The translations under genes and the position numbers were made by a program. A DNA stretch of 64,000 bases. Origin: Limonium bicolor (Eukaryota; Streptophyta; Magnoliopsida; Caryophyllales; Plumbaginaceae). The stretch spans positions 484,817,594 to 484,881,593 of the forward strand of contig CM041777.1 in NCBI GenBank assembly GCA_023374045.1, in the 5' to 3' direction. The notes beneath the pieces were generated by a model. It worked only from the letters and a program-made list of their open reading frames with translations, made no database searches and had not been told where the DNA came from. Of the stretch, positions 5,902-57,745 are shown piece by piece. Numbering within the stretch: the stretch's first letter is position 1; the number at the start of each line of letters is the position of its first letter.

Positions 5902-5984
5902 AACCGTTATAACATCAAAAATCACGATCTAATATCATCACGCAATATAATAAACAAAGTTCAGCAATCTACAGTTTTTTACAT

Positions 5985-12921: not shown

Positions 12922-12926
12922 TTTAG

Positions 12927-12938
12927 TGGTATCAGAGC
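12927..12938 (+). other. Primer binding site (initiator Met tRNA type)
   Basis: TGGTATCAGAGC, five bases after the LTR end, is the usual complement of the 3' end of plant initiator tRNA-Met. It primes minus-strand cDNA synthesis. Confidence 0.9.
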
Positions 12939-13040
12939 TCTGGGTTCTAATCTGGTGGGAATCTAGCTTTAGTCAGTCAGTCGTCAGTACCTGTGCTTTG
13001 GAGTTCCAAGTCTGAATTACGTGCTCTTTGGATTTTCAGA

Positions 13041-17100: not shown

Positions 17101-17513
17101 ATGTGTATTTGAAGGTTTCTCCAGTCCGTGGAGTTGTGCGGCTTGGGAAGAGAGGCAAGCTTAGCCCTCGCTTCGTTGGCCCTTTTGAGATCCTAGAGAG
17201 GATCGGGCCGGTTGCCTACCGTCTGGCCTTGCCTCCGTCGCTAGTAGCAGTGCATAGTGTGTTTCATGTTTCTATGCTGAGGAAATACGTTCCAGACCCG
17301 TCGCATGTTATTGATTTCGGTCCGCTTCAGTTGAGAGAAGATTTCACATTTGAAGCAGCTCCTTCGAGGATCCTAGCCAGAGATGTCCCTAAACTCAGGA
17401 GCAAGACCATGCCCTTGGTGAAGGTTCAGTGGTCGGGTCAGTCAGAGGAAGAGGCGACCTGGGAAGTGGAAAGTGAAGTGCGTTCTAAGTTTCCTGCCCT
17501 CTTCGAGCAGTAG
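14139..17513 (+). pseudogene. pol of the first Tekay-type element: PR, RT, RNase H, IN, chromodomain
   Basis: The aspartic protease motif is [11 protein letters not shown] (about 14190). RT runs from about 14640 to 15500, with [14 protein letters not shown] and the catalytic [10 protein letters not shown] at about 15198. RNase H is at 15590-15970, with [11 protein letters not shown] and [10 protein letters not shown]. Integrase has a zinc-binding start near 16280, the SDRDPRF catalytic region near 16650 and YHPQSDGQT near 16737. The end carries the [10 protein letters not shown] block and a chromodomain ([19 protein letters not shown], about 17419-17475). In-frame stops are at 15555, 15786, 16428, 16764 and 17037; a displaced frame covers the integrase core at about 16480-16570. 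It would have copied RNA to DNA and integrated it; now inactive. Confidence 0.9.
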
Positions 17514-17540
17514 GTACGTTTAATTTCGAGGACGAAATTC

Positions 17541-17554
17541 TTTTAAGGGGGAGG
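17541..17554 (+). other. Polypurine tract of the first Tekay-type element
   Basis: The run ttttaagggggagg lies three bases before the TG of the 3' LTR, the place where plus-strand DNA synthesis is primed. Confidence 0.85.
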
Positions 17555-17557
17555 TGA

Positions 17558-19752
17558 TGTTATAACCCAAAGTTCCGCTACTATTTTATTTCGTCACAAA
17601 CTTACTTTAAGTTGGCTTATTGTGAATTCAGGACATGGATGTCCTTTAAATTAAAGAGGAGGACGATTTGGTCTTTTCCACTATTCTGATTAAAGGTAAG
17701 AACTGATTTATTTAGAGATATTAATCAGTATTTCATCCACTCCCTAACCACGTTCTTATTCACGCCTCTATTCCCGATCAGTGTGTAAACTGTCAAGACG
17801 CTCCTCTCATTTTCTCTCAACTCTCCTCACCTTCTTCATCGACCTGCTAAGCGCAGTCACGACTGGTTGGAATTCAGAGTCTACTGGTGGATTACTCCTC
17901 CTCGGCGTCGTTGTGTTCAGTCGAGGTAATTAGTGGGATGATCTCTGTTAAATTTTGCTGTTTGAGAACCCTTCCTCAACCCTAATTATTTCTCTGCAAT
18001 ATGATTGATGAATCGGTAATCCTTCCGACGTTCCTTGTCAATCTCTTATGCTGTGGACTGGTTCTGCGTTCGTGACTGTCGGATTCAGGTATGGATTGTG
18101 GTTTTGTTTGCTGGGGCAGTTTCTGATTTGAGGGTTCAAGTTCTGATTTCAGTCTGTTCTTCAATTGCGCTTTGCTCAGTGTTTTGGATTGTGTTGTTGG
18201 TTTGCATTTCGGTGACTGCACTGGTTGGGCTCTGCTATCCCTGATTCGGGAATCGTCTGCTAATTATTGAGGTAGGTGGCTTTCCGATTTGGCTAGTGTG
18301 TTCAGTCTTGGGGAGTTTCAGATTCCGAGTTCTAACTTGTGATTTGGTTCTGCGTTGTGTTTGTGAATCCATCTGTTTATTGCTGTTTTAAGGTCTACAA
18401 ACCCCAAGGTTGTTTTTTTGTAAACTGGTGTCAATTTGAATGTGTTAAACCTCTGCTCTGTGTGCAATTTGTTTCTAGAAACTGCACTTTTTGACATGTC
18501 CGAACGTTTGTCCGAGCTTAGACGTTCGGACAGACCCTGTTTGCGCTCTGTTTTTTGAGTTTTAAACCGTGTCCGAACTTCCGTCCGAGCTTTGATGTTC
18601 GGACGGGCTGTGAGGACGAGTCTGACTTACAAGTCTCGAATGGTGTCCGAACTTGTAAGTTTGGACAGAAGTTCGGACACACCCTTCTGCTTCTCTGATT
18701 TTGCTTCAACTTGTGTCCGAACTTTGTCGTTCGAACACATGTTCGGACATTACGCGTATCTGATTTCCGAAGGCGTCCGAACATCCGTCCGAGCTTTGAT
18801 GTTTGGACATTCGTCTGATTTTAACTTCTGAGTCTCGACTTGTGTCCGAACGTTGATGTCCGGACACAAGTTCGGACATGACACTGTTTTGACCATAACT
18901 TGCTCGTTTGAGCTCCGTTTTGACTTCCGTCTGCGGGGTTGGATTCCCCCTTCTGATTTCCAAGCTTTTTATATGCTTTGTGGTGCCATTGGTGCACATA
19001 TGCTTAATTGTATTTAAGCTTCTGTTTTGGGACCTAGTAATCTCTGTATCTGAACCGTGGATGGCTGGTTTAGCTATCTCGTAGCGCGCTATGTAGGATA
19101 TCCTTCTGTTTCACGGGTGATGTTCCCCGTTCTATTCACAGGTGTTTCACCTGTTCTGTTTACGAGTGAGGTTTCCTCGTTCTGTTCACGGGTTGTTCCC
19201 GTTCTGTCTGTATGCTGTGATCAACTAGGGTCCCCTTCTGTTTCTGCTTCCGTTTGTTTTGAACTCTGATTAGTTCTTTTGTATTTGGACTTCTGCTTCT
19301 GATTTCTGTTATGGGATATGGCTTTCCTTCTGCCTACTTCTGATTTGATAACATTCTATAAATATTTTGAGCATGCTGGTTGATGATGTTGGTCATCTAC
19401 TGGGCATAATTGTTTGATCATTCCCCTACTTTATCAAACATTGCAGATTGATCAGCGAGAATCACTTTGTTCAGCTTCTGGAGTTTAGCTTTTGATATGT
19501 CTAGTTCTTTTTAGCCATTTGTAATTTTGACTTGTAGCCTTTGGGCCTCTGTTGTTAGCTCCACTTGTGATTTCGTTGAGGATTGTATTACGTTTTGAAT
19601 CTTCGACACTTTGTTTATACTTATTATATAAGTATTTGTTTTGGGCCTTGTTTTGATTAATTGTGTGCGTTCGTTAGAGCCTTGCGTTATTAAGTAATAA
19701 TACGCGGCGTGTAATACCCCTAACTCCTAGTCTAGTGTTTGGGGGTGTTACA
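17558..19752 (+). repeat. 3' LTR of the first Tekay-type element
   Basis: It begins TGTTATAACC and ends GGGTGTTACA. It is colinear with 10726-12921, including the hairpin array at about 18500-18885. The first 115 bp differ from the 5' LTR at about nine positions by eye; most other parts are closer. Confidence 0.9.
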
Positions 19753-20650
19753 TAAACAGTCACGCCCCACCAATTCAGAATGTGATTCTAGAGTTTCCTT
19801 GAAACATGGTAATGGAAGAAGAGATGTTGTGCAATGACATCATTGCATAATGTGTAGTAGAGCTGGCTAATAGGGATGAGATTTTGAGGAAGAGCTAAAT
19901 CTTTGTACGCTTATGGAGAAAAAACCACACCATGAGTCAATACGCAGTGGGGAATGTTTTTTGCCAAATGCTCAATGCCAGGAGACTGAGAGCTTTCTAC
20001 TACTTCCCGTAGCTGTTCATAGAAAGATTTTAAAGCAAAAAATGCCATATGTTGTTGCAAGCCAGTTAAGGTTGTCTGTTTGATCAATAATCTCTAGTGT
20101 GTTTCCATCTAAATGGGTCAAAAGTTCCTCAACTTGGAGAGTCTCATAATAGAAGATTTGGCATCCCCATATGAAATTCCATAGCGGCTATTGATCTTTG
20201 CTCCATTAGCTCATCTCTGTCACTCTTGAGAACTTTTGTTCACTGACTGAAAAAAGGTGGGGAAAGCTTAACTTGAGTGGCCAAAACCGTAATTTTTTTC
20301 TGCTGCTTATGACCTCAAGTTTTCTCGCATCATTTGGTCAAAGGTTGGATTCCATGAAGCAACTGATAGGATGGATTTCCTTTAGGAGCAACTAAAGACC
20401 ATTTCTCATCAGTAACCGAGAGGCAAATATCAACTTCACAGAGGGAAAAAATTACATTTTTCTAAAGCTTGCTATCATCCTTTTGAAATTTCCACCACCA
20501 CTTGAATAGAAGCGCTGCATTTTTTGTTTCGAGATCTACACTTCCCAACCCACCCTTATTCTTGGTCTCATTAGGGCACTCCATGTAGGACTGGAAAAAA
20601 AAGAATGAAACAAATCTACAACCCAAAATACGACACGACATTAGCATGTA
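19753..20650 (-). pseudogene. LINE RT / zf-RVT relic (right part, split by LTR element)
   Basis: Minus-strand translation shows fragments typical of the C-terminal half of plant LINE ORF2: KNKGGLGSVDLETKNAALLF with a following KWWWKFQ (about 20470-20560), and near the LTR a zf-RVT-like HLFFHYHVSRKL and NHILNWWGV (about 19760-19830). Many stops and shifts separate them. It appears to continue at 10400-10725 on the other side of the retrotransposon. Confidence 0.6.
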
Positions 20651-23900: not shown

Positions 23901-24743
23901 CGCTCTTCCTTTTTCTCTTCTCTTCTTTCTAGGTCCTGTCTCTTGACTTTGACATCTACAATGGAGGTTAATGGTGTGTTGATCTCTTGCGACCGGAATG
24001 TTGTGGGCTGAATTTTCCCAGCGTCACCCATCTGCTTTACTGCCCTTGCTACTGCTCTTCACCCCCTATGGAGTGATTTTGTGGGCTTCTGGTTATCTAG
24101 GGTTGATTTTCCCTTCTTTGTAATAGAGTTTAAGAAGCTGGAGGCCATGCAGATTGTCCTAGCACGAGGCCCCTAGGTGGTGAATGGCTCTTTGTTTGCT
24201 CTTAAGCAACTTGAGTAGGGGAAGTCTTTTGAAACATACGAGTTCAAATGGATCCTCTACTGGATCAGGATTTATGATCTTCCTTAAGCCTCCCTCAATT
24301 ATCATCTTGTGGAGAAGGTGGCGGCCAAGGTTGGATGGTTTACATGTGTTGTTGAGGATCCCGCAACATCAGGATACTAATATTTGTGTCTGAAGGTCCT
24401 TTTTTTATCTTCATCGCCCGGTCAAGTGCAACCTCCCTCATCTCCTTGATGGTGGCTATTATGTTTTCTGAATCACAATGACAACATACAATCTCTTTAT
24501 GCAACCTGTGGGCTCTTCGTGCATGTGACTAATGCTTGCTCAGTTCTACATAATGAAGAGGAGGATGAAGTTCCCTATGGTCTGTGGCTCTGTATCAAAA
24601 CTCCCCTTGTTCAATCACTGGTGAGCGAAACAACTCCTTTCGTTGACAACTCTACAATGAGGATGGAAATTTTACAAATTGGCCAGCCGGAACCGTCACA
24701 AGGCTCGAATAAACGTTCACATTCTCGTTTGATGGATCATGCA
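23900..24743 (+). pseudogene. LINE ORF1 relic, 5' part, split by the second Tekay-type element
   Basis: Fragments in plus frames read like a plant LINE ORF1 with a DUF4283-like core: VIEFKKLEAMQIVLARGP, NGSLFALKQLE, FKWILYWIRIYDLP, then HLVEKVAAKVGWF. They are separated by stops and shifts. The copy continues after the LTR element at 39217. Confidence 0.5.
24739..24743 (+). repeat. Target site duplication ATGCA (left)
   Basis: atgca directly precedes the left LTR and is repeated directly after the right LTR (39217-39221). Confidence 0.9.
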
Positions 24744-27700
24744 TGTAACACCCCTACTAAACATTTAACCATAACTGAAATCGCAGTGGAAAAACAACTA
24801 AACAATAACTAAACGATTCGGTGCTACAACGCCGTCAACCACCCACGTGTTTGAAAAGGCAGAATAAATACAAGTGTACCGGTCTGATGATCAGACTCCC
24901 GAGCATTAGGTAACAACATCCATATATACATAACCAACATACCGAGTATTTAATACAAACCGTCACTGAAAATTGTACACATAAACTACACTGTCAACTG
25001 TAACGATCGTCACTGTAACACGGACAGTACCAAAATATAACGCCATGGGAGCACAGGCGCATCCCAGGCTCAACATCCAAAATAACCAAAAGTAATTCTG
25101 CAGCCTAGAATCTATAGCCATTCCGCTTCCTCGATCCTCATCCTGCAGTAAAAATATGGAGCCCCCGAGGGGGTCAGCAACCCTTGGTTGGTATGGTTAA
25201 CGCGTAGCCCATCGGCTACCGGGATACGCGCAATTAATTATCATGATGACATGGCATTCATTTTAACACATAACATATACATATGGCATAACAATAATAT
25301 TGCATAGCACAACATCACATACATAGTGAATACACTTTCCACAATAACAAACCAAGAAGGTTTAACAGCATAAGAAGCCTAGGGAATGGTTCACCCTCAT
25401 GTTAAGCTTGTTACACACACTCATTACCGTTCTGTTAGTCGAACGAGTAACTTAAGTCACAGATGGTTCGGATATAGTGACCCGAACACACCACACAAAC
25501 ACATGTTCCCACTAAACCGATCATAAGTCAGAATAGGTAAGCTTTGGAGGAAGCTAGCGGGAGATCGAACGCCAAATAAAGGAGAACAATCTTAACATCA
25601 TAAGAGGTGAATCTGATCCAGATATCTACTCTTAAACTTACATGCATGACCGGACAACTGGATTCCTCACTCCCCAGTTAGCACTTGTTAGAAGTTTTTC
25701 CTTTGGAACTTAACAACAATTCACAAGCAAGTGGTAAGTCATGTTGGACACACACAAGGGAAATGAATCACGTCATAACATCATAATAGTATAAACGACT
25801 GTAAACTCATTACATGGTTAAGTCTTATAACGTCATAAACACTCAGAAAAACAAACAACACACAAGCCGGTGTAAACCGGTAGGCAACAGACTGCAAGAA
25901 AACCATACCTTGGTCCTTGCTTCGATTGATTTTCACCGTAGGCCACTCCTATACATAATTAAGAATGTCGGTTAATTAACTTACTTAACTTCAAATTTAC
26001 TAAGTGTTTAACATGGTTATATGACACGTTTTAATGTCTAAACTTACCCTTGATTACCTATATTACACCCTCTAGGGTTAACTACTTAAACTACACTTTG
26101 TTTGTTTTTTTTTACAAGTTTTGGTCCGACCGACCTTACCGACCGACCTTACACAAGGTCGGTCCATTCCAGAGCACATTACCGTTAAAAATTCTACTCC
26201 GACCGACCTTGCAAGTTCGGTCGCAAGTTCGGTCTATTCCCGAAAGTTTCTTTCCTTGAAAATTCAGGCCCGACCGATCTTGGCAAGTCCGGTCGCAAGA
26301 TCGGTCGATTCCCGAGACTCACTTACGTACAAAAATTTAGGCATGACCGACCTTGTAAGTCCGGTCCCAAGGTCAGTCTATTCCAGAGACTCAATCCGTA
26401 CTAAAAATCCATGCCCGACCGACCTTGCAAGTCCGGTCCCCAAGGTCGGTCCATTCCAGAAACCATTTCTCGCAGGGTAAACTGGGCTCGACCGACCTTG
26501 CAGGTCCGGTCCCCAAGGTCGGTCTGCTCCAGACCCTTGTTTTTAATTGCCCATTTAACTCCAAACTTCCCCACATATATCCTAGTATGTTCTAACCTTA
26601 TTTGGGCACTTCAAACACACCTCAAGACCTCCATTAAACTCCTTAAATCATTCATTAAAATCCTCCTCAAGCATTACACAAACTCTTATAAAAAGGTTTA
26701 CACTTGTTATGTTTTTCACTAAGTTCCTATGTGGTGTTTCATACCTATAACTTCCACTATTCCCAAATGTTTTCTCACCACTACAACATCATCTCCCAAG
26801 CATCTTTTCTTCCTAACCAAACTCCTTGAATATCTCTACAAATTTATAGCTCCTCCATACAACAAATCACTCCTTCCTTATTCACCAACATTGCACAAGT
26901 CCTAAACACAATCTCACCATGATCTTGAAGTATCCCAAAACACTCATTTGCACTCTAAATCCTCTAAAATAATGCTTAAGTCCCTTTTACACCTTAAAAC
27001 ACCTTATTGCATGTTTCTTTCTCTAGTAGAACACTTAACCATTCTAAACACTTCCTAACTTACCAAAACTCATTTTAAACACCTAAAGCTTCTTATACAT
27101 TATCTAAATTTCGACATGGGTTCTCCTAGAACATTACCAAGCCAAAACACATTGTTTTCACCATTAAACATCCAAGAACACTAAAATCCATCAAGAACAT
27201 TCTTGTACACAAAACTTCACTCATTTAACACTACATCACAACATAGTGCATAATTTAAATTGCATGGCACTTAGGCCCTTAAATAGCATGGCTCTTAGGC
27301 CCTTAAGATGCACAAACCATAAACATTGAATTTCCACAATATATTTGCCTTTGACCTGCAAATACACTCAACAACACATATGCCCTTTTACTAGTCTCCT
27401 TGAGAACATTTTCCTAAGTCATTCACTATTGGCTCCTTAGATCATTTTAATAAGCAACATAAGCTCATTTCTCCTAAGACTTTAAACCACATTAGGTTAG
27501 CACATTTACCTCTTTTCCTCACAACTTCTTTCTTGTTTCCTTGACTAAATCAGCAAGGCTTTTAGTTGCTTGTCAACTTCTAAACATTATACAAATGATA
27601 AAATGAGTATACAAGCTTTATGCTTCATCTTATTGTAAACCCTATGTTATACATTGTTTTAAAACATTAAGATAGTTGTTTTACCTTGGATATGACAGAG

Positions 27701-28782
27701 AGTTTGGATATGTAGCAAGAGAGGACTCCACCTAGTCCATGAAAGGTTGAAATGAAGCTAGAACAAAGCAATATAAAGAACCCCATCAATGGTGATTCTC
27801 GGTCAACATCAAAGCAAGAAGGAAATGAAGTTTTTATTTGAGTTTCCTTACCTAGAAGCAAAGGAGAGCAATAATATGTGAAAAGGTGAGCTCAAGCTCC
27901 TCCCATGGAGATTCCTCTTGGCACCGAAATGGAGCTCTTGAGATTTTGAAAGGATGTAGTTGAAGAGCTTGGCAAGACAAAGAGAATGGTGGCCTTAGTT
28001 TTTGATTTGGCAAAGTGAGCTAGGAATTACAAGTGATTGAAGATGAAGAATGATGGTGGTGGTGCTGTTGCAAAAATCGGAAATGAGAGAAAGAAGGAAG
28101 GTAGAAGACGGTGGGAACAGGGGAAATGAGAGAATGAAGAAGACTTAACTAGTTTTGATACTTAAGTAGAAAGTAAATAGTGTTTACTTTATCACTTTCC
28201 TTTCTTATCAAATTAACAAGGGGATGACTCATCCCTTATAAGAAAACTGGCCCCCATTATATAAATAGGGGTATTAGTCTTTGTTGACCAATTAAATTAC
28301 TTACATTGACATATGTTATAAACTTGGTTAATTTGGTTACTATTCATAAAAACAAGGCACATAGATGTGAAATTTTTGATTTCCCATTGATATAGACTTC
28401 CAAATGTGATACTAAGTAGTACACATATTAATTAAAGAGTAATGATGGACATTTAGCCATTCAAAACTCATTTACAAGACAATTTTTCAAAAATGTGCTT
28501 TAAGACTCCTTAGAGCACATTTTGTGTGTTTTAACTTGTTTTAAGCTGGGTTTTCTTGGATTTGGTTAGTATATTAACACCTAAATGAAGTCTTGATAAG
28601 CTTATTAGGTCTTAATCAAGCTTATTCCAAGCTTAGGGCACATTTTAGCCCTAATTGACTTTAAGGTACTTATTTGTGTTTTCTATGGTTTAAATTGTTT
28701 ACTAATGTTTCGAAGACTCTTTTTAGTCTTAATATACCATATTTTAATGTTTAAACAACATACTAAGGTTTGGGTTATTTCA
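24744..28782 (-). repeat. 3' LTR of the second Tekay-type element
   Basis: 4,039 bp, reading TGTAACACCCC...GGTTATTTCA on the plus strand. It contains the hairpin array at 26128-26525. No coding region is supported; short frames over the array are by-products of its repeat. Confidence 0.9.
26128..26525. repeat. Hairpin array in the LTR, about 72-bp period (family B arms)
   Basis: Six units start at 26141, 26201, 26272, 26345, 26417 and 26490. Each pairs GACCGACCTT with AAGGTCGGTC or a close variant. The unit at 26417-26451 has 11-bp perfect arms (GACCGACCTTG / CAAGGTCGGTC) around a 13-base loop, and most units are followed by a cca/cta-ttcc-like tail. The matching array in the other LTR is at about 36557-36955. 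Confidence 0.9.
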
Positions 28783-28787
28783 ATCTA

Positions 28788-28800
28788 CCCCCCCTTAAAA
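28788..28800 (-). other. Polypurine tract of the second Tekay-type element
   Basis: On the minus strand this reads ttttaaggggggg, five bases before the 3' LTR. It is the expected plus-strand primer site. Confidence 0.85.
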
Positions 28801-29070
28801 GAACTTTGTCCCCAAAGTTCATACTTCCCACATATCCTAAATATTAGAACACGGGAATACATATAAACAATACTTCCATAACAACATTAACAACATACTT
28901 ACATAACATCGGACGCAAGGTCCAAATAACATAACATCATTCAGACATAACGGTCTGTAACATAACAACATAACATAGACGATGTATTTAAATACACGTC
29001 GTACACACATAACCGAAACGGCTCTACCCCCCTTAAAAGGGGTACGCCCCGTACCCTATACACATAAACA

Positions 29071-32000
29071 CTAAGAAGTAAACAATGACGGGTACTTCGC
29101 CTTCATCTTAGCTTCCAGCTCCCAAGTGGCCTCCTCGACGTCCTGGTTAGACCAGAGAACCTTCACCAGTCTCACAGACTTATGGCGAGTGTCTCGAGTC
29201 TTAGTATCCAGAATCCGTACCGGAGTCTCCATTGATCGCATGGTCGGCTCTAAGGTTAGCCTTTTAGGCTGAAGCACATGAGACGGATGAGACATATATT
29301 TCTTCAACTGGGACACATGAAATACATCATGCACCTTGCCCAGCTCGGCGGGTAAATCAAGTCTGTAAGCTACCGGGCCGATCCGCTCTGTCACAACTAA
29401 GGCCCCACATATTTTGGGCTCAACTTGCCTTTCTGGCCAAAACGAAATACTCCCTTCATGGGGGATACCCTAAGAAATACCTGATCGCCCACGGTGAACT
29501 CCAGGTCACGTCTGCGCACATCGGCGTATGATTTCTGCCTATCCTGAGCTGCCTTCATGTTAGCCCGGATTTGGCGTACTTCTGCTTGAACTTGTTCCAG
29601 ATACTCTGGTCCTATAATGACCGTCTCACTCGACTCATCCCAGCATAATGGCGTGCGACATGGTCTACCGTATAATGCCTGGAAGGGAGACATCTTGATC
29701 GAAGCATGGTAACTATTGTTGTAACTAAACTCGATCAGATGTAACTTATCAATCCAGCTGGTCTGAAAATCAAGTGCACATGCACGTAACATATCCTCAA
29801 GTGTCTGGATGGTGCGCTCACTCTGACCATCTGTCGTGGGTGGAACGCTGTACTTAGCTTCAGCTCGGTACAAGCGCTTCCCGTGTGGATTTCCAATACC
29901 TTGAGAAATCTGGTATCCCTGTCAGACACAATTGTTTTCGGTACCCCATGATGTCTTACAATCTCTCTGTCGAAGAGCTCTGCTAGTTTTGCTACTTTCC
30001 AGGTGTCCTTCATCGGTATGAATCGAGCCACCTTGGTCAGTCGGTCAACAACAACCCAAATCATATTCAGACCTCCCCTTGTAGGCGGAAGCCCTACTAC
30101 GAAGTCCATAGAAATGTCATGGAACTTCCACTCAGGCACTGGCATTGGCTGTACCATACCACCAGGCCGCCGGTGCTCAAACTTGACCTTCTGGCAAGTG
30201 AGACACCTCAATACATAATCATTCACATCCTTTTTCATTCCAGTTCACCAAAAATAACGTTTCATACCCTTGTACATCTTTGAAGCTCCGGGGTGAATCG
30301 AAGTCGTAGAACAATGGGATTCACTCTATATGCGCTCCTTCAGTTCAGCGCTACTCCTCGGGATACACAGTCGGCCATTGAGCCTAATCAGGTCATCATC
30401 GTGGAGTCGGAAGTCGTACTTCTAACCCTCGAATGTGCCATCAATAAGCTTCTGCCTGACTTCTAACATATACTGATCCGTCATCTGAGCACTCCGCACC
30501 TCTTCAACCAAGCCAGTATGAGAGACTAGCAAATGGAGAGAGTGTGCTCGGCGACTCAATGCGTCAGCTACCACATTTGCCTTACCCTCTTTGTACTGTA
30601 AATTGATGTCGTAGTCGTTTAAGAACTCGACCCATCTTCTTTGTCTCATGTTCAACTCCTTCTGAGTGAACAAGTATTTTAAACTTTTATGGTCAGAATA
30701 AATTGCCACACTTACCCCATACAAATAATGTCGCCACATCTTCAATGCGAAGACAATGGCACCCAGTTCTAAATCGTGGGTAGGGTAGTTCTCTTCATGC
30801 TTCTTCAGCTGTCGGGAGGCGTATGCTACGACCTTCCCGTGTTGCATCAACACACAACCCATACCTCTGCCTGATGCGTCGCAATAGACCTCAAAACCAT
30901 CTGGACCGTCTGGTATAGTCAGGACTGGTGCAGATGTCAGAGCATCCTTGAGACTCTGAAAAGAACTCTCACAGTCATCTGTCCACTCGAATGGAGCATC
31001 CTTTTTCATCAAGGAAGTCATCGGCTTCGAGACACTGGAGAAGTCCTTCACAAACCTCCTATAATAACCTGCCAGACCGAGGAAGCTCCTGATGTTGGTA
31101 ACTGTCTTCGGCCTAGGCCAGGTGCGCACTACATCAATCTTTGCCGGATCAATAGAGATCCCGACCTCAGAAATCACATGACCAAGAAAGGATACTTGGT
31201 TCAACCAAAATTCACACTTTGAAAACTTAGCATATAACTTATTCTTTCTCAATGTTTGTAACACATTTCTTAGGTGGCTTTCATGCTCACCTCTCGATTT
31301 CGAGTACACAAGAATATCGTCGATGAAGACTACCACTGACTTGTCCAACTGATCTTGGAACAAGCGGTTCATTAAGTCCATGAACTTGGCTGGTGCATTG
31401 GATAGACCAAACGGCATAACCGTAAACTCATAGTGTCCATATTTGGTTTCGAATGCCGTCTTCTCAATGTCACACTCACGGATGGCAATCTGATGGTATC
31501 CGGATCGTAGATCTATCTTGGAGAACACTGATGCTCCTCTCAACTAATCAAATAAGTCGTCGATGCGTGGCAAAGGATAACGGTTCTTCACCGTAACTGC
31601 ATTCAGCTCTCGATAGTCAATACACAGGCGGAGACTACCGTCCTTCTTCTTCACGAAGAGGACCGGCGCTCCCCATGGTGAAACGCTAGGGCGGATAAAT
31701 CCCTTGTCGAGTAGGTCTCTCAGCTGCTCCTTGAGCTCTGTCATCTCTGCTGGAGCCATACGATAGGGCGCCTTCGCAATTGGTCCGGTGCCCGGAACCA
31801 AATCAATTTCAAACTCAACTTCCCGTGCTGGCGGCATGCCCGGCAGTTCCTTAGGAAATACATCAGGAAACTCCGACACTACCGGCACATCTGGGCTAAA
31901 CTCTGGGTCTCTTTCTATGTCCTGGACATAGCAAAGGTATACATCATTCCCTCGTCGTAATTCACGATACATGGCCATGGCGGTGATGATCTGAGTCGAA

Positions 32001-32445
32001 GGCTCCCTGGGCCTCTGGCGGTAAGATATAGTAACCCCAGACGGACTCCGAAGAAGCAGACGATGCTCGGCACACAGGATTCTGCCCTTGTACCGCTCCA
32101 ACCAGTTCATCCCAACAATCACATCAAAACCAAGTCCGTCGAACTCTATCAAGTCGATCGGAAACTCTTCATCACGAATTCGTACAACAGCATCTCGGTG
32201 GTAGCGGGTACATCTGATCCGCTCTTTCGACGGGAGAGTGACTAGAAAGTCTGGCATCTCTTCACCGTCTAACCCCAGCCTCTTCGCAAAAGATAGCGAA
32301 ATAAATGTATGTGAGGCTCCAGAGTCGAACAAGATCGAAGCGTCCACGCCATTGACTGGAAAGGTATCGGTGAGGATTGTGCCGCTCTTGCCGGCTTCTG
32401 CCTCATTGCAGACACTCAGTATACCTCCCGTTCCGAGTGCACAGC
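29071..32445 (-). pseudogene. pol of the second Tekay-type element: PR, RT, RNase H, IN, chromodomain
   Basis: The protease motif [11 protein letters not shown] is at about 32300-32330. RT has [14 protein letters not shown] and the catalytic [10 protein letters not shown] (about 31300-31330). RNase H has [11 protein letters not shown] and [10 protein letters not shown]. Integrase has CLTCQ at its zinc end, IVSDRDTRF (about 29910-29935) and a final chromodomain ending near 29071. Stops lie at 31544 (TAG), 30422 (TAG), 30326 (TAG) and 30245 (TGA), with frameshifts near 29870 and 29400. The open frame reaches up to about 32460 with no ATG near its start, and a phase-compatible splice acceptor lies at 32446. 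It is therefore more likely made as part of a spliced or fused gag product than from its own start. Confidence 0.85.
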
Positions 32446-32623
32446 CTAATTCATTGGCAAACTAATAAGTATTTGGTAACAACACGGTTGATATACTTCG
32501 AACAACTCCACTTTATTGATTAACACTCCCTTCATATCACAAGTCGATTACATTGTAAACTTAGCTAGATACAGCATTCTTAATATACATCTGACCTAAC
32601 ACATTACATAATTATACAAGGCT

Positions 32624-33363
32624 TTAAAACTGTCTGAAAGTTAAATTCAAACGTTCGGGTTTCATGTGTGTGGCATTGATCACTGCCAATGGTGCGGTAT
32701 TCAGTTTGATCTTCCTGATGCCATGATATAGCATCCTTGACTGCCCACCCATGATTAACACATCTCCTGATTTCAACACTAACTTCCTTGCGAGATCAGC
32801 ACGCTTCTGCTCGCCATATATAAACACTGCGGTATCACCAATGGACCAAGACACCACGGGTACTCCCTTACTTAGAGACTCGGGTGACTCGTCCTTATCT
32901 TGGTGTAACCCTAACCGTCCACCTTTCTGGTAGAAGTTCACAATACATAAATCCGCTTTAACACTTGGTATTGAATCTGATTCAACTTGCTGAGCAATTC
33001 CCACGGCGTGGTTAACGATCGCAAGGAACTCCTCAGGTATCATTGGTACAGTTGCTCCATCTTCGGCTCGCACTCCCTGATATGTCTTGGTGTAAGGATT
33101 TCAGTCCTTACCCATGCACATCATCTTCAATTTCATTCTCGATCCACTCGGGTATTCGGGTGTGTAGAAACCTCCTGGTGCTGTTCCAAGTTCATTGCAT
33201 CGTCTGATGATGTGGATTTGTGCTTCCGGTGTCAGGTATCCATTTAAGAGTATCATACCTGGTTGGATGACCTGACATTGCTCCATAGGAAAGTCGGTGC
33301 TGTTGATGGTGGTTTCTTCAGGGTTTGGTGTGGGTGGGATTGGATAACAAATATTGAAGGTTC
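32624..33363 (-). pseudogene. AlkB-type 2OG-Fe(II) dioxygenase domain inside the retrotransposon (exon 4 of gag-AlkB)
   Basis: AlkB-family enzymes oxidatively remove methyl groups from bases in DNA or RNA using iron and 2-oxoglutarate. From 33363 the frame reads TFNICYPIPPTPNPEE, then an N-terminal block (VIQPGMILLNGYLTPE, GTAPGGFYTPEY) and the catalytic core. All key motifs are present: NFYQKGGRLGLHQDKDES (2OG and iron site, His-x-Asp), SWSIGDTAVFIYGE, GDVLIMGGQSRMLYHGI (second iron His), and RLNLTFRQF (2OG arginines). The block order and length (about 245 residues) resemble plant ALKBH1-like proteins. One stop (TGA at 33101-33103, where the family has a Trp codon) interrupts it, and the natural stop is TAA at 32624. 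It sits between gag and protease of the LTR element, in the same orientation, and splices in frame to gag. Confidence 0.88.
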
Positions 33364-33507
33364 CTAGATTTCCAAATTACCTATTTAGGTGACTTTCACA
33401 TTATACTTTAATTCTTTACTCACATGGTAGTACACTTGGACTCACTAACACACATGCATGAAATGCGATATGCAATCACTTATTTCACTCAACAGTTTAG
33501 GCGGTAC

Positions 33508-34973
33508 CTGGTCTAGTAGAGGGCCCTGGCGCCTCAGACCGGTCCACCACATTCAGGGCGGCCTTGCTAGGTCATGACCCTTTCCCCTTCTGGGAATCAG
33601 TGAGCCTCTGATCTGTGGGTGGCTGGTTAGCCGACTTCGGGCCATCGATGGTCGCTGTGGCCTTACCCTTCCACTACCCCTTGGGCTTGTTGACTCTGCT
33701 GTTGGGGTTCCGGTAACACTCATAGTCACGGTGACCCCACTTCTCGCAGTAGCGACACTGCACGTCATTTCCCTTGCAGTCTTTGCCGGGGTGGTCTCCG
33801 TTACACCACTTACAATAGTAGTGGCGCTCCAGTCCAGAACCCGCGCTAGCTGCTATCACAGTACACAATCAGTACTTACTTCATAACTTAACAACATACT
33901 CTTCAACTTGACACACATGATTAAATAATTACCCTTAGGCGGGTAAGAGCGTAGGGGTTTCGCCGCGTATGCATATGTGAGCTTCAGTGGCTCCTCAGCT
34001 GTGGTGGTTTGGGCTTGGCCCTTGTCACCCTGGTGCTGACTCTTCTGGGGCTGGGGATAAGGCTTCTTCTTCTTCTTTCCTCCCCCGTACCTCTGCGGAC
34101 TCTGGCCCTCGCTCGTGGCCTTGCGCTTGTGCGCATTCTCCTCGTCCCTTAGTCGGATGGTAATCTCAACCTTAGCAGCGGCATGATAGCACTCCTGGAT
34201 TTAGGACCTCAGTCATGCCCCGCAAAACATACTCACAAACTCACATTAATACTCACTTACGGATTACACTTATTCACATCACACTGTATTCTAATTACCT
34301 GCAAGGTAGTATACTCAGCTGGCCCCATCCCGTAGCGAAGACGGTGGCTGAGACCGTTGTAGAAACGGTTTACCAGCACCCGGTTCGAGTATCCCAGGTC
34401 CGGTAACAGGTGGATAAGGCCGGTGAAGGCAGTGTAGTAGTCATCGACCGACATCTTATCCCCCTGCCTCAGACTATCCAGCTCTAGGCGCTTGGCCTCT
34501 TGTACATGCACAGGATAATACTTGGCTTGCAGCAGAAGTGTATACTCTCTCCAACCAAACTGAGGATCCGCCATCCGGTCCTCTCTCACAAGCTTCCACC
34601 AACTTTGTGCCAATCCCTTCAGGTAGTAAGCGGCAAGACGGACCTTGACCCCAGCAGGCACATCCAAGGTCTCGTAGGCGGTCTCCAACTCGGAGATGTA
34701 CGCCTCCAGCTTACGTGGGTCGATCTCCCCATGAAACGACGGGGGTCTCAAATCTGCCAACGCCTTGACCCAATTGGTCTCTCGTGGCGGTGTTGGTGGT
34801 GGTTGAACTTCGGGCTGTTGCCCCTGCTGAATTGCAGCTACAAATTATGGGACCATCTAGGCTACGGCGGCCGCAACAGCATCGGCCATGACTTGCGCCG
34901 TAGGGTTCTCCCCCTGGTTCCCAGTATCACCAATGCCGCGCCCGCGGCCTCGACCTCGTGGTCTACCTAACAT
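33508..34973 (-). pseudogene. gag of the second Tekay-type element, three exons
   Basis: Exon 1 (34299-34973) starts MLGRPRGRGRGRG and has the gag domain (PPSFHGEIDPRKLEAYI, YYLKGLAQSWWKLVRED, LRQGDKMSVDDYYTAF). Exon 2 (33933-34194) is basic, with a KKKKK patch. Exon 3 (33508-33852) has two zinc knuckles: CKWCNGDHPGKDC with shortened spacing, and CRYCEKWGHRDYEC. Introns 34195-34298 and 33853-33932 have GT-AG ends, are about 80-105 bp and keep the frame exactly. A third predicted intron, 33364-33507, joins exon 3 in phase to the AlkB exon at 33363, so gag and AlkB would be one protein of about 673 residues. Stops at 34857 (TAG), 34845 (TAA), 33674 (TAG) and 33572 (TGA) break this copy. Confidence 0.75.
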
Positions 34974-35192
34974 CTGAATTCACACGAACACTCATTAGCA
35001 TTGTGCTTACACACTTATCGGTTCCAACGGCTGTAACGTCTTCCCGACAACAAGGTATCTCCACACTTAGTTAGTGGTTAACCTTTACATAACTGCTCAC
35101 TTAGGTATCTGTGGTTAGGTTTCCTAACTCGGTATATTCCTAAGCTCGGTATTCCAGTCATCAGAGCGATACTTCGCTCTGATACCACTTTT
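34974..35192 (-). other. Leader between 5' LTR and gag, with primer binding site
   Basis: The PBS TGGTATCAGAGC (minus strand, plus positions 35176-35187) lies five bases from the LTR and is of initiator Met tRNA type. It overlaps a perfect 10-bp inverted repeat: ATCAGAGCGA (35160-35169), a four-base loop, then TCGCTCTGAT (35174-35183). No other feature is seen. Confidence 0.85.
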
Positions 35193-38100
35193 TGTAACAC
35201 CCCTACTAAACATTTAACCATAACTGCAATCGTAGCGGAAAAACAACTAAACAATAACTAAACGATTCGGTGCTACAACGCCGTCAACCACCCATGTGGT
35301 TGACAAGGCAGAATAAATACAAGTGTACCGGTCTGATGATCAGACTCCCGAGCATTAGGTAACAACATCCATATATACATAACCAACATACCGAGTATTT
35401 AATACAAACCGTCACTGAAAACTGTACACATAAACTACACTGTCAACTGTAACGATCGTCACTGTAACACGGACAGTACCAAAATATAACGCCATGGGAG
35501 CACAGGCGCATCCCGGGCTCAACATCCAAAATAACCAAAAGTAATTCTGCACCTAGAATCTATAGCCATTCCGCTTCCTCGATCCTCATCCTGCAGTAAA
35601 AATATGGAGCCCCCGAGGGGGTCAGCAACCCTTGGCTGGTATGGTTAACGCGCAGCCCATCGGCTACCGGGATACGCGCAACTAATTGTCATGATGACAT
35701 GGCATTCATTTTAACACATAACATATACATATGGCATAGCAATAATATTGTGAGCACAACATCACATACATAGTGAATACACTTTCCACAATAACAAACC
35801 AAGAAGGTTTAACAACATAAGAAGCCTAGAGAATGGTTCACCCTCATGTTAAGCTTGTTACACACACTCATTACCGTTCTGTTAGTCGAACGAGTAACTT
35901 AAGTCACAGATGGTTCGGATATAGTGACCCGAACACACACACAAACACATGTCCACTAAATGATCATAAGTTAGAATAGGTAAGCTTTGGAGGAAGCTAG
36001 CGGGAGATCGAACGCCAAATAAAGGAGAACAATCTTAACATCATAAGAGTCGAATCTGATACAGATATCTACTCTTAAACTTACATGCATGACCGGACAA
36101 CCGGATTCCTCACTCCCAGTTAGCACTTGTTAGAAGTTCAACAGTGGAACTTAACAACAATTCACAAGCAAGTGGTAAGTCATGTTAGACACACAAGGGA
36201 AATGAGTCACGTCATAACATCACAATAGTATAAACAACTGTAAACTCATTACATGTTAAGTTATAACGTCATAAACACTCAGAAAAACAAACAACACACA
36301 AGCCGGTGTAAACCGGTAGGCAACAGACTGCAAGAAAACCATACCTTGGTCCTTGCTTCGATTGATTTTCACCGTAGGCCACTCCTATACATAATTAAGA
36401 ATGTCGGTTAATTAACTTTCTTAACTTCAAATTTACTAAGTGTTTAACATGGTTATATGACATGTTTTAATGCCCAAACTTATCCTTGATTACCTACATA
36501 CCCCCTAGGGTTAACTACTTAACACACTTTGTTTGTTTTTTTTTTACAAGTTTTGGTCCGACCGACTTACCGATCGACCTTACACAAGGTCGGTCCATTC
36601 CAGATACATTACCGTCAAAAATTCTACTCCGACCGACCTTGCAAGTTCGGTCACAAGTTCGGTCTACTCCCGAAGTTTCTTTCCTTTGAAAATTCAGGCC
36701 CGACCGATCTTGGCAAGTCCGGTCGCAAGATCGGTCGATTCCCGAGACTCACTTACGTACAAAAATTTAGGCATGACCGACCTTGTAAGTCCGGTCCCAA
36801 GGTCGGTCTATTCCAGAGACTCAATCCGTACTAAAAATCCATGCCCGACCGACCTTGCAAGTCCGGTCCCCAAGGTCGGTCCATTCCAGAAACCATTTCT
36901 CGCAGGGTAAACTGGGCTCGACCGACCTTGCAGGTCCGGTCCCCAAGGTCGGTCTGCTCCAGACCCTTGTTTTTAATTGCCCATTTAACTCCAAACTTCC
37001 CCACATATATCCTAGTATGTTCTAACCTTATTTGGGCACTTCAAACACACCTCAAGACCTCCATTAAACTCCTTAAATCATTCACTAAAATCCTCCTCAA
37101 GCATTACACAAACTCTTATAAAAAGGTTTACACTTGTAATGTTTTTCACTAAGTTCCTATGTGGTGTTTCATACCTATAACTTCCACTATTCCCAAATGT
37201 TTTCTCACCACTACAACATCATCTCCCAAGCATCTTTTCTCCCTAACCAAACTCCTTGAATATCTCTACAAGTTTATAGCTCCTCCATACAACAAATCAC
37301 TCCTTCCTTATTCACCAACATTGCACAAGTCCTAAACACAATCTCACCATGATCTTGAAGTATCCCAAAACACTCATTTGCACTCTAAATCCTCTAAAAT
37401 AATGCTTAAGTCCCTTTTACACCTTAAAACACCTTATTGCATGTTTCTTTCTCTAGTAGAACACTTAACCATTCTAAACACTTCCTAACTTACCAAAACT
37501 CATTTTAAACACCTAAAGCTTCTTATACATTATCTAAATTTCGACATGGGTTCTCCTAGAACATTACCAAGCCAAAACACATTGTTTTCACCATTAAACA
37601 TCCAAGAACACTAAAATCCATCAAGAACATTCTTGTACACAAAACTTCACTCATTTAACACTACATCACAATATAGTGCATAATTTAAATGGCACTTAGG
37701 CCCTTAAATAGCATGGCTCTTAGGCCCTTAAGATGCACAAACCATAAACATTGAATTTCCACAATATATTTGCCTTTGACCTGCAAATACACTCAACAAC
37801 ACATATGCCCTTTTACTAGTCTCCTTGAGAACATTTTCCTAAGTCATTCACTATTGGCTCCTTAGATCATTTTAATAAGCAACATAAGCTCATTTCTCCT
37901 AAGACTTTAAACCACATTAGGTTAGCACATTTACCTCTTTTCCTCACAACTTATTTCTTGTTTCCTTGACTAAATCGGCAAGGATTTTAGTTGCTTGTCA
38001 ACTTCTAAACATTATACAAATGATAAAATGAGTATACAAGCTTTATGCTTCATCTCATTGTAAACCCTAGGTTATACATTGTTTTAAAACATTAAGATAG

Positions 38101-39216
38101 TTGTTTTACCTTGGATATGAAAGAGAGTTTGGATATGTAGCAAGAGAGGACTCCACCTAGTCCATGAAAGGTTGAAATGAAGCTAGAACAAAGCAATATA
38201 AAGAACCCCATCAATGGTGATTCTCGGTCAACATCAAAGCAAGAAGGAAATGGAGTTTTTATTTGAGTTTCCTTACCTAGAAGCAAAGGAGAGCAATAAT
38301 ATGTGAAAAGGTGAGCTCAAGCTCCTCCCATGGAGATTCCTCTTGGCACCGAAATGGAGCTCTTGAGATTTTGAAAGGATGTAGTTGAAGAGCTTGGTAA
38401 GACAAAGAGAATGGTGGCCTTAGTTTTTGATTTGGCAAAGTGAGCTAGGAATTACAAGTGATTGAAGATGAAGAATGATGGTGGTGGTGCTGTTGCAAAA
38501 ATCGGAAATGAGAGAAATAAGGAAGGTAGAAGACGGTGGGAACAAGGGAAATGAGAGAATGAAGAAGACTTAACTAGTTTTGATACTTAAGTAGTAAAGT
38601 AAATAGTGTTTACTTTATCACTTTCCTTTCTTATCAAATTAACAAGGGGATGACTCATCCCTTATAAGAAAACCGGCCCCCATTATATAACTAGGGGTAT
38701 TTTAGTCTTTGTTGACCAATTAAATTACTTACATTGACATATGTTATAAACTTGGTTAATTTGGTTACTATTCATAAAAACAAGGCACATAGATGTGAAA
38801 TTTTTGATTTCCCATTGATATAGACTTCCAAATGTGATACTAAGTAGTACACATATTAATTAAAGAGTAATGATGGACATTTAGCCATTCAAAACTCATT
38901 TACAAGACAATTTTTCAAAAATGTGCTTTAAGACTCCTTAGAGCACATTTTGTGTTTTAACTTGTTTTCAAGCTTGGTTTTCTTTGGTATTTGGTTTATT
39001 ATATTCATTAACACCTAAATGAAGTCTTGATAAGCTTATTAGGTCTTAATCAAGCTTATTCCAAGCTTAGGGCACATTTTAGCCCTAATTGACTTTAAGG
39101 TACTTATTTGTGTTTTCTATGGTTTAAGTTGTTTACTAATGTTTCGAAGACTCTTTTTAGACTTAATATACCATATTTTAATGTTTAAACCACATACTAA
39201 GGTTTGGGGTATTTCA
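35193..39216 (-). repeat. 5' LTR of the second Tekay-type element
   Basis: 4,024 bp, colinear with 24744-28782 and nearly identical over most of its length, with a few small indels (for example near 37691 and 36540). It holds the second copy of the family B hairpin array at about 36557-36955. Confidence 0.9.
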
Positions 39217-40000
39217 ATGCATCATAGGAGGAATTTTAGGACCCAAGACTGGCTGAGGTAGAGCGCAAGGGCAAACACTTGATGATTGAAGCTATAAGGA
39301 TATAATGATGGGTTAAGTAGGTGGATCTGATGTTGGATCAGGGCCACTACCAGAACAAATGATCGCAGTCTTCCCTGATTGATTGAGAATAAGTAACTCT
39401 CAGGAAAATAGAAGTTTTTGGGTACCCTTTTTAGTAATTTTCACCGTTGTCCTGTTTTTGTTATGTTTTCCATAGACTCAAAGTCTTAGACTTGGGTGTG
39501 TCTTTGTTTGCCCTTTCATTCTTTAGCTTATATCTTTTTGTATTTTTTGGTCATCTTAGGGTTCTTATGCTTTCACTTTTTTCAATGCATGTTTGGTTGT
39601 TATTTTTCTGAAGGAGACCATGATGATCTCCTGGGCTTTGGTAGCTAGTTGTTGGCTGAAGTGCTAAGAGCTTCTTGGAACAATCAATGCCTCTGATTTC
39701 TTCCTTTGTCATTGCAACCACCCATAGGGCATTGGTTGCACAAAGAAATGCAGGTGTTAAGATTAGTCTTTGTTTGGACTACTTATGTTGTTAGCTTTTG
39801 TAGAATCTTTAGGTTGAAACTAGTGGTAAAGGGCAGGGACTTCAATTTCCCTGGGTCTCCTTTGTTGTTAATGTTTATGTTAATATTGTAGCTTGTTTTG
39901 ATCCTAGGTCTGTAATGAACTTCTTATCTTAATGTAGTTTTAGATATTAAAAAAACTCATTTCTCATGTAGCCTGATAGTTCTAGTCAATGAAGAACAAT
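39217..40000 (+). pseudogene. LINE relic, 3' part, continued after the LTR element
   Basis: It begins with the ATGCA duplication, continues the relic of 23900-24743, and tails off near 39950 in an A-rich stretch (attaaaaaaac) that may be the old poly(A) end. No RT domain was found, so the copy is truncated internally. Only its position and composition support the link. Confidence 0.35.
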
Positions 40001-48570: not shown

Positions 48571-50303
48571 CTTGACCCGCCGGCCTGTCTACTGAGATGC
48601 TTGCTATATAAGTAATCTAAGACGGAGCTATAAGTTGGCTAGTTTTGATTTCTGATCTTGATGAAGGAGAGACGTCCTTTCTTACATTTGCATAACAGGA
48701 TGAAGAATTAGATAGGTATACAATTTCTTTCTTCGAATATGAGCTAATTGAAAATAATTCTTTTTTTTTTCTACTGCTAGATTCAAATTCTATCATTGAG
48801 GATGAAACGAGCCTGCATACGTTCTATGGACTGCCATATTTGAATTTGTTTGAAAATCTGGTTTACAATTCGCGCTTATTTTTTCTAATTAAGAAAACAA
48901 AATATTTATAAGTGAATATGTATTTTGAAACAAATAATATGCTAATATTCAATCTTAATGAGACTAATGCACGTAACATTCCCTTAATGATCTTTTTACA
49001 TTTTTTATTCAAGGGGAAGGCAATATATATCTTAAGGCTTTTTATCCTCAGCATTTTTAATCATTTACACATAAGCTCTTAACAATCTTCTTGCATAAAT
49101 TGCCTGGCAGTTGAACTGTATTATTAAAAACCTTCACGTTGCCTCTGTTTAATTAATTAGTTCTAATATTGACTTTCCTATACTTAAAAAAAGAAGTTCA
49201 AGTATTGACTTTCCGATACTAGAAAATAGTTCCAATCTTGACACCCATGGAGGGTCATATCTTATAAAGAATATATAGGACTCTATATATATATAATAAA
49301 TGAGGTTTTCTGTATTATCGTCCTGACAGCCCGTAAACTGACAACCTGGAGACTTGAAATCATGTTCACCGGTTCAATAGAAGCAACACACTTGAAGACT
49401 TTGGGCTGCTAACATTATGTGAAGTCCATGTTTGTTACACATTCAGACTCGATACTAAATATGGGCTAGATAACACATTTGGGCCGGCTCTGTAGGGGAA
49501 AACTGAACTACTCCAGTATCTTATTTTTACGACTTTAACGATAAAAATATAAATTTTGATTGAGACCAAATTCTTTTTTTTTTTGAGTTTATGGATACAT
49601 GAACTTATATTTTTTTAACTCATTGTTTCCTTTTGTATATAATACATATTAACTATTACTTTTTTACATTTTTTTCTTTCTTTCTTTAGCATACTTTGTT
49701 CTCTATATTTTCAAATTTTGTTGATAATTAACATAAGTTATAATTTCCCATCTACTAAAACTATAGGCCATAGAATAGTTTGTGACGAGATCGGCCCATG
49801 AATAGCCCTCGAGAGTTGGAGTCGGCCTGTCCCAAAGTGATGACTCTTATGACGTTGAATTATTGATCTTCTTTCATGAAAAAAACAGGATATGAACACT
49901 CATCTCTAACATTTTGAAACAAAATGTAGATTATTTTGTTTAGAAACTTACAAAATCTCGTAACTTATAGTATGAGTTATCATCTGGGACCATTAGTTAG
50001 ATATCCAAGCAATTCCATGATTCAAATTAGGTACTTGTAACTTGTAAGGAGTGACTAAAGTACGTACGTAGTAGGTATATGGAGAGCAACCAATTGCTGT
50101 TTAGCTTGCCGCTTTAGCTTTCAGTAATGCGTATAATTTCCCTTATCTAGAAACCAAACTTGTGGGTGTAATTCCAACATTGATTTGGACGGACGAACAA
50201 CCGTAATTAGGCTCTACTTTAGGAAAGAAATTCTCTCCATGGATCGAAGTTCACTTCTTTTTTTTTTTTTGAACTGCAAGAACAATCGCGTTGTTTGTCA
50301 GTA
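48571..50303. other. Intergenic, promoters of plastid copy 2 (left) and the RING-H2 gene (right)
   Basis: Blocks at 48780-49500 match, in order, blocks at 44620-45250 upstream of copy 1 (for example actgccatatttgaat, aaaaccttcac near tctgtttaattaatta, and an aaaactgaacta stretch). The promoter region was therefore duplicated with the gene. The remaining sequence is AT-rich with poly-T runs at 49574 and 50259. Confidence 0.65.
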
Positions 50304-55982: not shown

Positions 55983-55996
55983 TAAATAAAAGCAGG

Positions 55997-57442: not shown

Positions 57443-57745
57443 CACTTCCAACAGAGAACCTGAACACCAGCAACCGAGGCATTGGACGACCGCCCTTACT
57501 AATTACAGGTGAAACCGAGAATAGACCAAGACTAGGGGATAGATTCAGGAGAAAACTGGAAAGATTGCCCGAGGAGATTAGAGAAACAGCGTCGAAGCGG
57601 GGATTCTTCGAGAGGAAGAAAACCCTAGAGCATGGAGAGCGCCGCGCGTACCGCGCGTTCTATTTTCCTCATCTTGTGGATTTAGTTACTTATTATTCTT
57701 AATTCAAACCTAATATTACTGTTCTATTCGATTACCCTAATTACA

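Follow-up and report, generated by a model that had tools for sequence, protein, structure and literature searches.

Structure of the AlkB-bearing element

The window, namely the whole 64-kb stretch of Limonium bicolor DNA analysed here, harbors an LTR retrotransposon of the Ty3 type on the minus strand (24744..39216; 14,473 bp), as delimited by its LTR pair, a 5-bp target-site duplication and Pfam domain matches. The 5′ LTR (35193..39216, minus strand) and the 3′ LTR (24744..28782, minus strand) are each approximately 4 kb in size, display TG...CA termini and share 97.3% nucleotide identity over 4054 BLAST alignment columns (K2P: 0.0208), while identical copies of the target-site duplication ATGCA are located at 24739..24743 and 39217..39221. 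With substitution rates per site and year of 1.3e-8 and 7e-9, this divergence would place the insertion at about 0.8 to 1.5 million years ago. The primer binding site TGGTATCAGAGC (35176..35187, minus strand), taken from the sequence, is presumably of the initiator tRNA-Met type, and a polypurine tract, named by eye, is found at 28783..28796 (minus strand). Several diverged internal repeats, at steps of ~70 bp, can furthermore be observed in both LTRs (26100-26533 and 36585-36963).

The Pfam domains of the element follow the order gag-PR-RT-RNase H-IN, with clear matches for gag, protease, RT and RNase H. The stretch extending from the protease through RT, RNase H and integrase to the chromodomain (29071..32445, minus strand) has its frame broken at several points, and in this decayed copy the Integrase_H2C2 (24.9 bits; cut-off: 25.5) and rve (18.4 bits; cut-off: 32.6) matches fall below threshold, while the SH3_Tf2-1 integrase end scores 58.4 bits (cut-off: 30). 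A Chromo domain match (PF00385; 22.6 bits) occurs in the expected place below the curated cut-off of 25.1, and matches of 20.3-23.8 bits, all slightly below this cut-off as well, recur at the equivalent place in all four other copies scanned, so that the element is likely of the chromovirus type. Membership of the Tekay (Del) lineage is plausible, as judged by described traits rather than by reference elements: the gag-PR-RT-RH-IN order, the size, the weak chromodomain match and the long LTRs are shared, the last of these being a Tekay trait, whereas the AlkB exon and the gag introns described below distinguish the Limonium element.

Between the Gag zinc knuckles and the protease, on the same strand and inside both LTRs, the element carries an AlkB domain, which is encoded by a terminal exon at 32624..33363 (minus strand; stop codon at 32626-32624). 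The region 32624-33376 matches PF13532 over its full length (profile positions 1-194 of 194; Bitscore: 163, cut-off: 31.2; e-value: 9.8e-48), one in-frame TGA having been read as a residue in this search. The HxD iron ligands are located at 32897..32905 (His codon 32905-32903, Asp codon 32899-32897), the second iron-ligand His at 32723..32725 and the RxxxxxR 2-oxoglutarate motif at 32633..32653, all on the minus strand. These motifs and the placement of the domain within the element had been proposed in an earlier note, made from the letters of this DNA alone, and both agree with the Pfam matches and the LTR pair, while the limits proposed for the domain coincide with the exon model, which runs from 33363 to the stop at 32624. 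Two features went unrecorded there, namely the exon and intron layout, in which AlkB resembles an alternative last exon, and the decay of this copy, with in-frame stops in gag and a TGA disrupting AlkB (33101..33103, minus strand). The AlkB motif pattern (up to three mismatches) occurs once in the window. A chance motif was rejected on the basis of the Pfam e-value, of the order of 1e-47, and of reversed-pattern controls without a match.

Copy number and association with one reverse transcriptase lineage

The genome searched comprises 2.92 Gb in total and includes eight large contigs (540 to 136 Mb). A degenerate pattern coding for GLHQDKDE, with F also admitted for L, has 16,627 exact matches genome-wide, and 18,817 when I and M are also admitted at the second residue, while the reversed control of each pattern has none. 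Were every motif match a full-length copy, the family would occupy ~272 Mb or 9.3% of the genome, a figure that gives the scale only, as copies may be truncated and the motif is also present in host genes.

Two samples, both chosen independently of AlkB, were used to relate the motif to the element. The first comprises the 20 matches to a zinc-knuckle pattern (4775 matches genome-wide) in the first 11.4 Mb of contig C1. The exact AlkB motif occurs 904-912 bp downstream on the same strand in 15 of these, while the remaining five, in each of which 421 bp were read, comprise one AlkB with an altered motif, two decayed AlkB copies and two cases of other DNA. AlkB is thus present in 18/20 matches, decayed copies included. 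The second sample consists of the first 100 matches listed for an RT pattern, from 26,714 genome-wide, 48 of which are preceded by the exact AlkB motif in the same orientation (at a distance of 1.44-1.53 kb in 47 cases and of 2.8 kb in one). With the looser motif this rises to 55/100, 54 of them at 1.44-1.53 kb. When divided by RT residue, the motif accompanies 49/62 LSNAP-type matches, 1/27 LTNAP-type matches, 0/1 of another type and 5/10 of which the type was unread. The 13 LSNAP-type matches without it were typed by motif alone, and AlkB may be absent or mutated there. Given the difference between LSNAP- and LTNAP-type matches, AlkB goes with one RT lineage, which makes up about half of the sampled Ty3 matches. 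The counter-case that the earlier note had named, a single copy with AlkB or a domain in neutral decay, is at odds with the thousands of motif copies and with the purifying selection described below. Copy number, position and selection together rule out a one-off passenger.

Comparison of the flanks of ten copies identified a match of >300 bp in the LTR position for eight, one of which (L009) extends over only 541 bp, while no such match was found between the flanks of the other two (L013 and L027). The two LTRs within a copy differ by a K2P of 0.009-0.018 in the four copies measured (window: 0.0208), yet the main LTR matches of other copies are ~78-96% identical to the window LTR, suggesting that the subfamilies are old and the measured insertions young. 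In three regions of contig C1 of the assembly (1430340-1461717, 4328130-4348957 and 7387134-7418970), AlkB motifs are arranged at near-even steps of ~10.4-10.65 kb, which suggests tandem LTR-internal arrays with shared LTRs.

Selection on the AlkB domain

Variation was analysed in 50 copies, consisting of 30 loci, with the window copy among them, and a further 20 from the best 150 AlkB matches. The latter represent the scored part of 44,303 first-look candidates, and the set is as such not random. Codon variants present in at least three copies were counted as shared and those in a single copy as singletons, with variants in exactly two copies excluded. The nonsynonymous/synonymous ratio of shared variants is 0.13 for AlkB, 0.144 for the gag exon 1 part and 0.138 for the start of PR-RT. 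Among singletons, gag (1.0) and PR-RT (0.81) show the ratios that post-insertion decay would produce, while the AlkB value of 0.31 is biased low by the choice of copies on AlkB similarity. The His, Asp, His, Arg and Arg residues of the Fe/2-oxoglutarate site are kept in 50/50 copies, a count that the AlkB-based choice may flatter. AlkB is 70-73% identical between three subfamilies, represented by the window copy and loci L071 and L072, and dN/dS between them is 0.07-0.15, with dS saturated at 1.3-2.4.

From these codon comparisons, AlkB is under purifying selection about as strict as that on gag and pol. The earlier note had held that a dN/dS well below 1 with catalytic residues kept would support function, and this is the pattern found. 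It could still be proposed that AlkB was captured once and carried neutrally by a successful family, as the domain is broken in the window copy, decayed in two and replaced by other DNA in two of the 20 zinc-knuckle copies. The low shared-variant ratio, the low dN/dS between subfamilies (with the saturation noted) and the intact active-site residues in all 50 copies make such neutral carriage highly improbable.

Exon layout and a candidate alternative last exon

The gag region is open in frame only when two short introns are removed. In the exon model, in which all features are on the minus strand, gag exon 1 (34299..34973; PF03732 on 34257-34844, e-value: 4e-17), the start of which was set by eye at the first ATG, is followed by intron 1 (34195..34298; 104 nt), exon 2 (33933..34194), intron 2 (33850..33932; 83 nt) and exon 3 (33508..33849). 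The reading frame supports the placement of intron 1, and each intron has its GT in 48/50 and its AG in 46/50 copies. Two in-frame stops, read by eye, occur in exon 1 and another two are present in exon 3. The latter exon encodes two CCHC-type zinc knuckles, which were read as a motif from the sequence, no Pfam match to them having been returned in the window scan. Downstream of exon 3, a 5′ splice donor (GT; 33506..33507; 50/50 copies) can be paired with either of two 3′ splice sites, one in front of the AlkB exon (AG; 33364..33365; 50/50 copies) and one in front of the protease-pol exon (AG; 32446..32447; 48/50 copies, reading TG in two loci), and both acceptors are in phase 1 with this last gag donor. 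An AATAAA hexamer resembling a poly(A) signal (32512..32517) is located past the AlkB stop, and the spacer between this stop and the protease acceptor contains AATAAA in 50/50 copies, against 10.1 expected from shuffles. On average, 77.5% of copies retain the other GT and AG dinucleotides of the introns and spacer, and as 24 of these 97 are kept in at least 96% of copies, conservation of the dinucleotides alone is modest evidence. On the basis of the conserved splice sites together with the matching phases, we infer that the AlkB unit is an alternative last exon sharing the last gag donor with the protease exon, and AlkB is probably spliced onto Gag.

The layout and the AATAAA hexamer are also found in L071 and L072, the DNA of which is 68-72% identical to the window over the main aligned stretches. 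In L071 (AlkB identity: 71-72%), both predicted products have open frames, gag-AlkB as far as the AlkB stop and gag-PR-RT across the full 594 codons read. L072 likewise keeps gag-AlkB open up to this stop, but has AA in place of the AlkB acceptor AG and a stop in gag-PR at codon 426. In the initial set of 30 loci, L008 and L013 retain an open gag-AlkB frame up to its natural end, and gag-PR is stop-free in L005 and L013, the protease acceptor of L013 reading TG. The remaining loci have stops or shifts, and stops in the gag part occur in 24/30.

Three other arrangements were rejected. Unspliced read-through from gag into AlkB is incompatible with the upstream frame in 21 of the 30 loci (the nine minus-strand loci were left out), where no long open frame was present. 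A fusion of AlkB to pol is precluded by the AlkB stop, which precedes the protease exon. Use of TTATTAG as the protease exon acceptor gives an in-phase stop, as worked out by hand, while GAATTAG is in phase.

Alternatively, AlkB may be selected but produced unfused to Gag, as a protein in its own right with an internal start or promoter, as in orchids, where the related domain forms a separate ORF (PMC9289625). A Met located 27 residues into the AlkB exon in 7/11 aligned copies could provide such a start. However, the residues ahead of this Met are conserved in other subfamilies, with an F[NS]ICYPIP stretch kept in L071 and L072, and the first 87 codons of the exon have a shared-variant ratio of 0.2. 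The AlkB acceptor is furthermore in gag phase in addition to being kept in every copy, and the AlkB frame opens 4-12 codons ahead of the exon or within the domain in the 21 loci examined. We consider a separate AlkB protein unlikely.

Enzyme class and origin of the AlkB sequence

Among solved structures, rice 5xeg/5xoi is the best relative of the element AlkB (229 bits with the window protein; 239 bits with a profile of 11 copies), followed by E. coli AlkB (84 and 76 bits) and human ALKBH1 (46 and 45 bits). No ALKBH2, 3, 5 or 8 chain is present among the 24 solved-structure matches of the 11-copy profile at E<10. Six full-length element copies share 49-54% amino acid identity with rice 5xeg/5xoi over 215-216 columns; 5xeg may be the product of the rice gene LOC_Os03g60190. 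As the rice structure scores far above all others and none of the other chain types was matched, the element AlkB is, by solved structures alone, of the plant ALKBH1-like kind. An origin from the ALKBH5/9/10 type, as in orchids, was rejected, no such solved chain being among the matches at E<10. A structure prediction for the AlkB exon was set aside, as it reached a mean pLDDT of 31 from 11 rows that are 93-97% alike.

For rice ALKBH1, the product of LOC_Os03g60190, a nuclear location, activity on 6mA in ssDNA and antagonism towards PRC2 marks have been described (PMC10469495). As a member of the AlkB family, the element protein may oxidise N-methyl groups of nucleic acid, perhaps ssDNA 6mA or RNA m6A. 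A repair role has also been considered, in which AlkB would reverse 1-methyladenine and 3-methylcytosine damage in element RNA or cDNA rather than act on a regulatory mark. This would agree with the position of E. coli AlkB as second-best solved relative, above human ALKBH1, but the match to the rice structure is much stronger, and 6mA demethylase activity has been reported for rice ALKBH1 (PMC10469495), so that a repair role appears rather improbable.

A host-like CLGKNWDP pattern has 19 matches genome-wide, five of which (L078-L082) were read. In L078 the exon is of host type, with a 3′ splice site ahead of it, while L079-L082 are AlkB stretches that continue beyond the point where the host exon starts; these four were labelled as transposable elements in the tree from the AlkB stretches alone. 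L079 and L082 are 62-84% identical to the element AlkB of the window, L071 and L072. L080 and L081 (C3:867010-867330 and C4:281488000-281488320 of assembly G000) share only 41-57% identity with the remaining AlkBs in the comparison, from plants and elements alike (77-105 columns), and as such the AlkB set of this genome is, from the stretches compared, more diverse than the window family. Since the element copies read through the 3′ splice point of the host exon, the absence of introns fits capture of AlkB from a spliced message.

The relationship to the present host gene is less direct. The element-type rows share 43-53% identity with L078, the host piece (77-80 columns), and 41-54% with rice, and the element AlkB is thus not clearly nearer the host gene, suggesting that the capture is old or that evolution within the element has been fast. 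With regard to a possible single capture, the phylogenetic tree splits element rows from host plus rice with support of 93/84, the rooting with E. coli not being reliable, and a topology in which the element rows are held together is 3.7 log units worse (p-AU: 0.032) in a test that includes the long E. coli branch. When the rice protein was used as query, nearly all of the 150 scored matches listed span residues 2-225 without introns at ≤59% identity, and a host ALKBH1-like gene was not evident among their top rows. The proposal of the earlier note that the element captured a host ALKBH1-like sequence accordingly holds as to the plant ALKBH1-like kind and the integration of the domain into the element, while a closest relationship to the present host gene is not clear.

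Comparison with known AlkB-bearing replicons

The 2-ODD Ty3 elements of Phalaenopsis (Gypsy_Pa_2799) contain a PF13532 domain and make up 8.6% of the P. aphrodite assembly (PMC9289625). The orchid element is Tat/Ogre-like, 25.5 kb in size, with a primer binding site to tRNA-Arg and gag-pol in a single ORF, while its AlkB is of ALKBH5/9/10 type, occupies an ORF of its own (565 aa) and demethylates m6A in vitro (PMC9289625). In both cases an abundant plant Ty3 element has retained an AlkB domain of the PF13532 family. The Limonium family, in contrast, is found in a eudicot, is likely of chromovirus type with a chromodomain-like end of the integrase, measures 14.5 kb, and has an ALKBH1-like AlkB exon between gag and protease; compared by description, the window element is neither Tat/Ogre-like nor equipped with a separate ALKBH5-type ORF. 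Its primer binding site, putatively of the tRNA-Met type, also contrasts with the tRNA-Arg site of the orchid element. From these features, the Limonium family arose separately from the orchid one as regards enzyme class and architecture, and very probably also as regards element lineage. The rice 5xeg/5xoi protein differs from the Limonium AlkB copies in not being within an element.

No report of a Limonium AlkB retrotransposon family and no Tekay element with AlkB were found among the papers listed in searches of the open-licence PMC literature. The earlier note had known of no described Tekay element with this domain, which agrees with this search, although AlkB in a plant Ty3 element as such is known from orchids (PMC9289625). 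In the parts of the literature consulted, the orchid study reports the domain in no other plant among 121 angiosperm genomes screened (PMC9289625), a 2025 review mentions the orchid case only (PMC12786077), and the terms AlkB, Limonium and Plumbagin- do not occur in a Retand survey (PMC11963269). Splicing also has a precedent in the Ogre elements of pea and Medicago, where partial splicing yields the full polyprotein (PMC6317226), but there the intron divides GAG-PROT from RT-RH-INT, whereas the Limonium layout has two alternative 3′ exons, one of them AlkB. Both the Limonium element and certain plant RNA viruses are replicons with their own AlkB. In the viruses the domain sits in the replicase. 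Members of the Alpha- and Betaflexiviridae and the Closteroviridae are among those that carry it (PMC9289625).

Proposed role of AlkB in the element

We consider it probable that an ALKBH1-like sequence was captured long ago and has been kept as a working part of the element, with AlkB as an alternative last exon yielding Gag-AlkB or Gag-Pol. Its retention as a working part is argued for by the copy number, the purifying selection and the conserved active site. Under this scenario, a Ty3 lineage would have taken up an intronless plant ALKBH1-like coding sequence and retained it across many rounds of amplification. Splicing from the last gag donor to the AlkB exon, with its own stop and poly(A)-like signal, would give a Gag-AlkB fusion, while splicing from the same donor to the protease exon would give Gag-Pol, and the choice between the two would also set the Gag:Pol ratio. 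The fusion would bring a demethylase of nucleic acids into proximity of the nucleocapsid, with packaged RNA or single-stranded cDNA as possible substrates for the removal of N6-methyl or other alkyl groups.

Action of Gag-AlkB inside the particle is speculative, and protection or de-repression of the RNA or cDNA of the element, as suggested in the earlier note, is a possible role. A fuller scenario is possible but on balance doubtful: the retrovirus-like splice switch between Gag-AlkB and Gag-Pol would place a demethylase of the ssDNA-6mA type in the capsid to clear element RNA or nascent cDNA of host methyl marks, and this trait would have arisen separately from the orchid one and have contributed to the ~19,000 AlkB motif copies of the family. 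AlkB might instead act mainly on host chromatin or RNA, for example on 6mA or R-loops at silenced loci, and so de-repress the element, as could be envisaged from the nuclear, ssDNA 6mA-active rice ALKBH1 that opposes PRC2 marks (PMC10469495). However, the in-phase junction with Gag, being conserved, argues for the particle as the site of action. The host-directed reading furthermore leans on LOC_Os03g60190, and the solved relative 5xeg may be another protein; we regard it as rather unlikely.

If AlkB is kept as a working alternative last exon, as we favor, the arrangement would offer a straightforward means of adjusting the Gag:Pol ratio and of bringing an enzyme into the particle. Two Ty3 lineages, the orchid Ogre-like and the Limonium one, have acquired different AlkB enzymes and have both reached great abundance. 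This suggests that the methylation of adenine in the RNA or DNA of elements constitutes a genuine host barrier, which elements evolve to remove. As the Limonium AlkB resembles the ALKBH1 group, associated with ssDNA 6mA, and not the m6A-RNA group, the debated role of 6mA in plant DNA could be tested on an element that seemingly carries its own eraser.

Neighboring features in the window

A second Ty3 element is located at 10726-19753 (plus strand), with LTRs at 10726-12922 and 17558-19753 sharing 94.8% identity. It encodes PR and RT at 14073-15557, with an LTNAP-type RT motif at 15102, and no AlkB motif was found in it in the pattern search of the 64-kb window. A LINE-like stretch on the minus strand (51953-57502) includes RVT_1 (53115-54353), RVT_3 RNase H-like (51953-52846) and DUF4283 (55997-57502) domains. 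The region 5423-8420 is rich in inverted repeats, with arms at 5423-5903 and 6845-7326 (95.5% identity) and a part, 7332-8420, which matches its own reverse complement at 77%, and is perhaps a foldback element. Two host-gene-like ORFs can furthermore be observed, which code for a protein with a plastocyanin-like (Cu_bind_like) domain (539-1237, minus strand) and a RING-H2 finger protein (50223-51146, plus strand).
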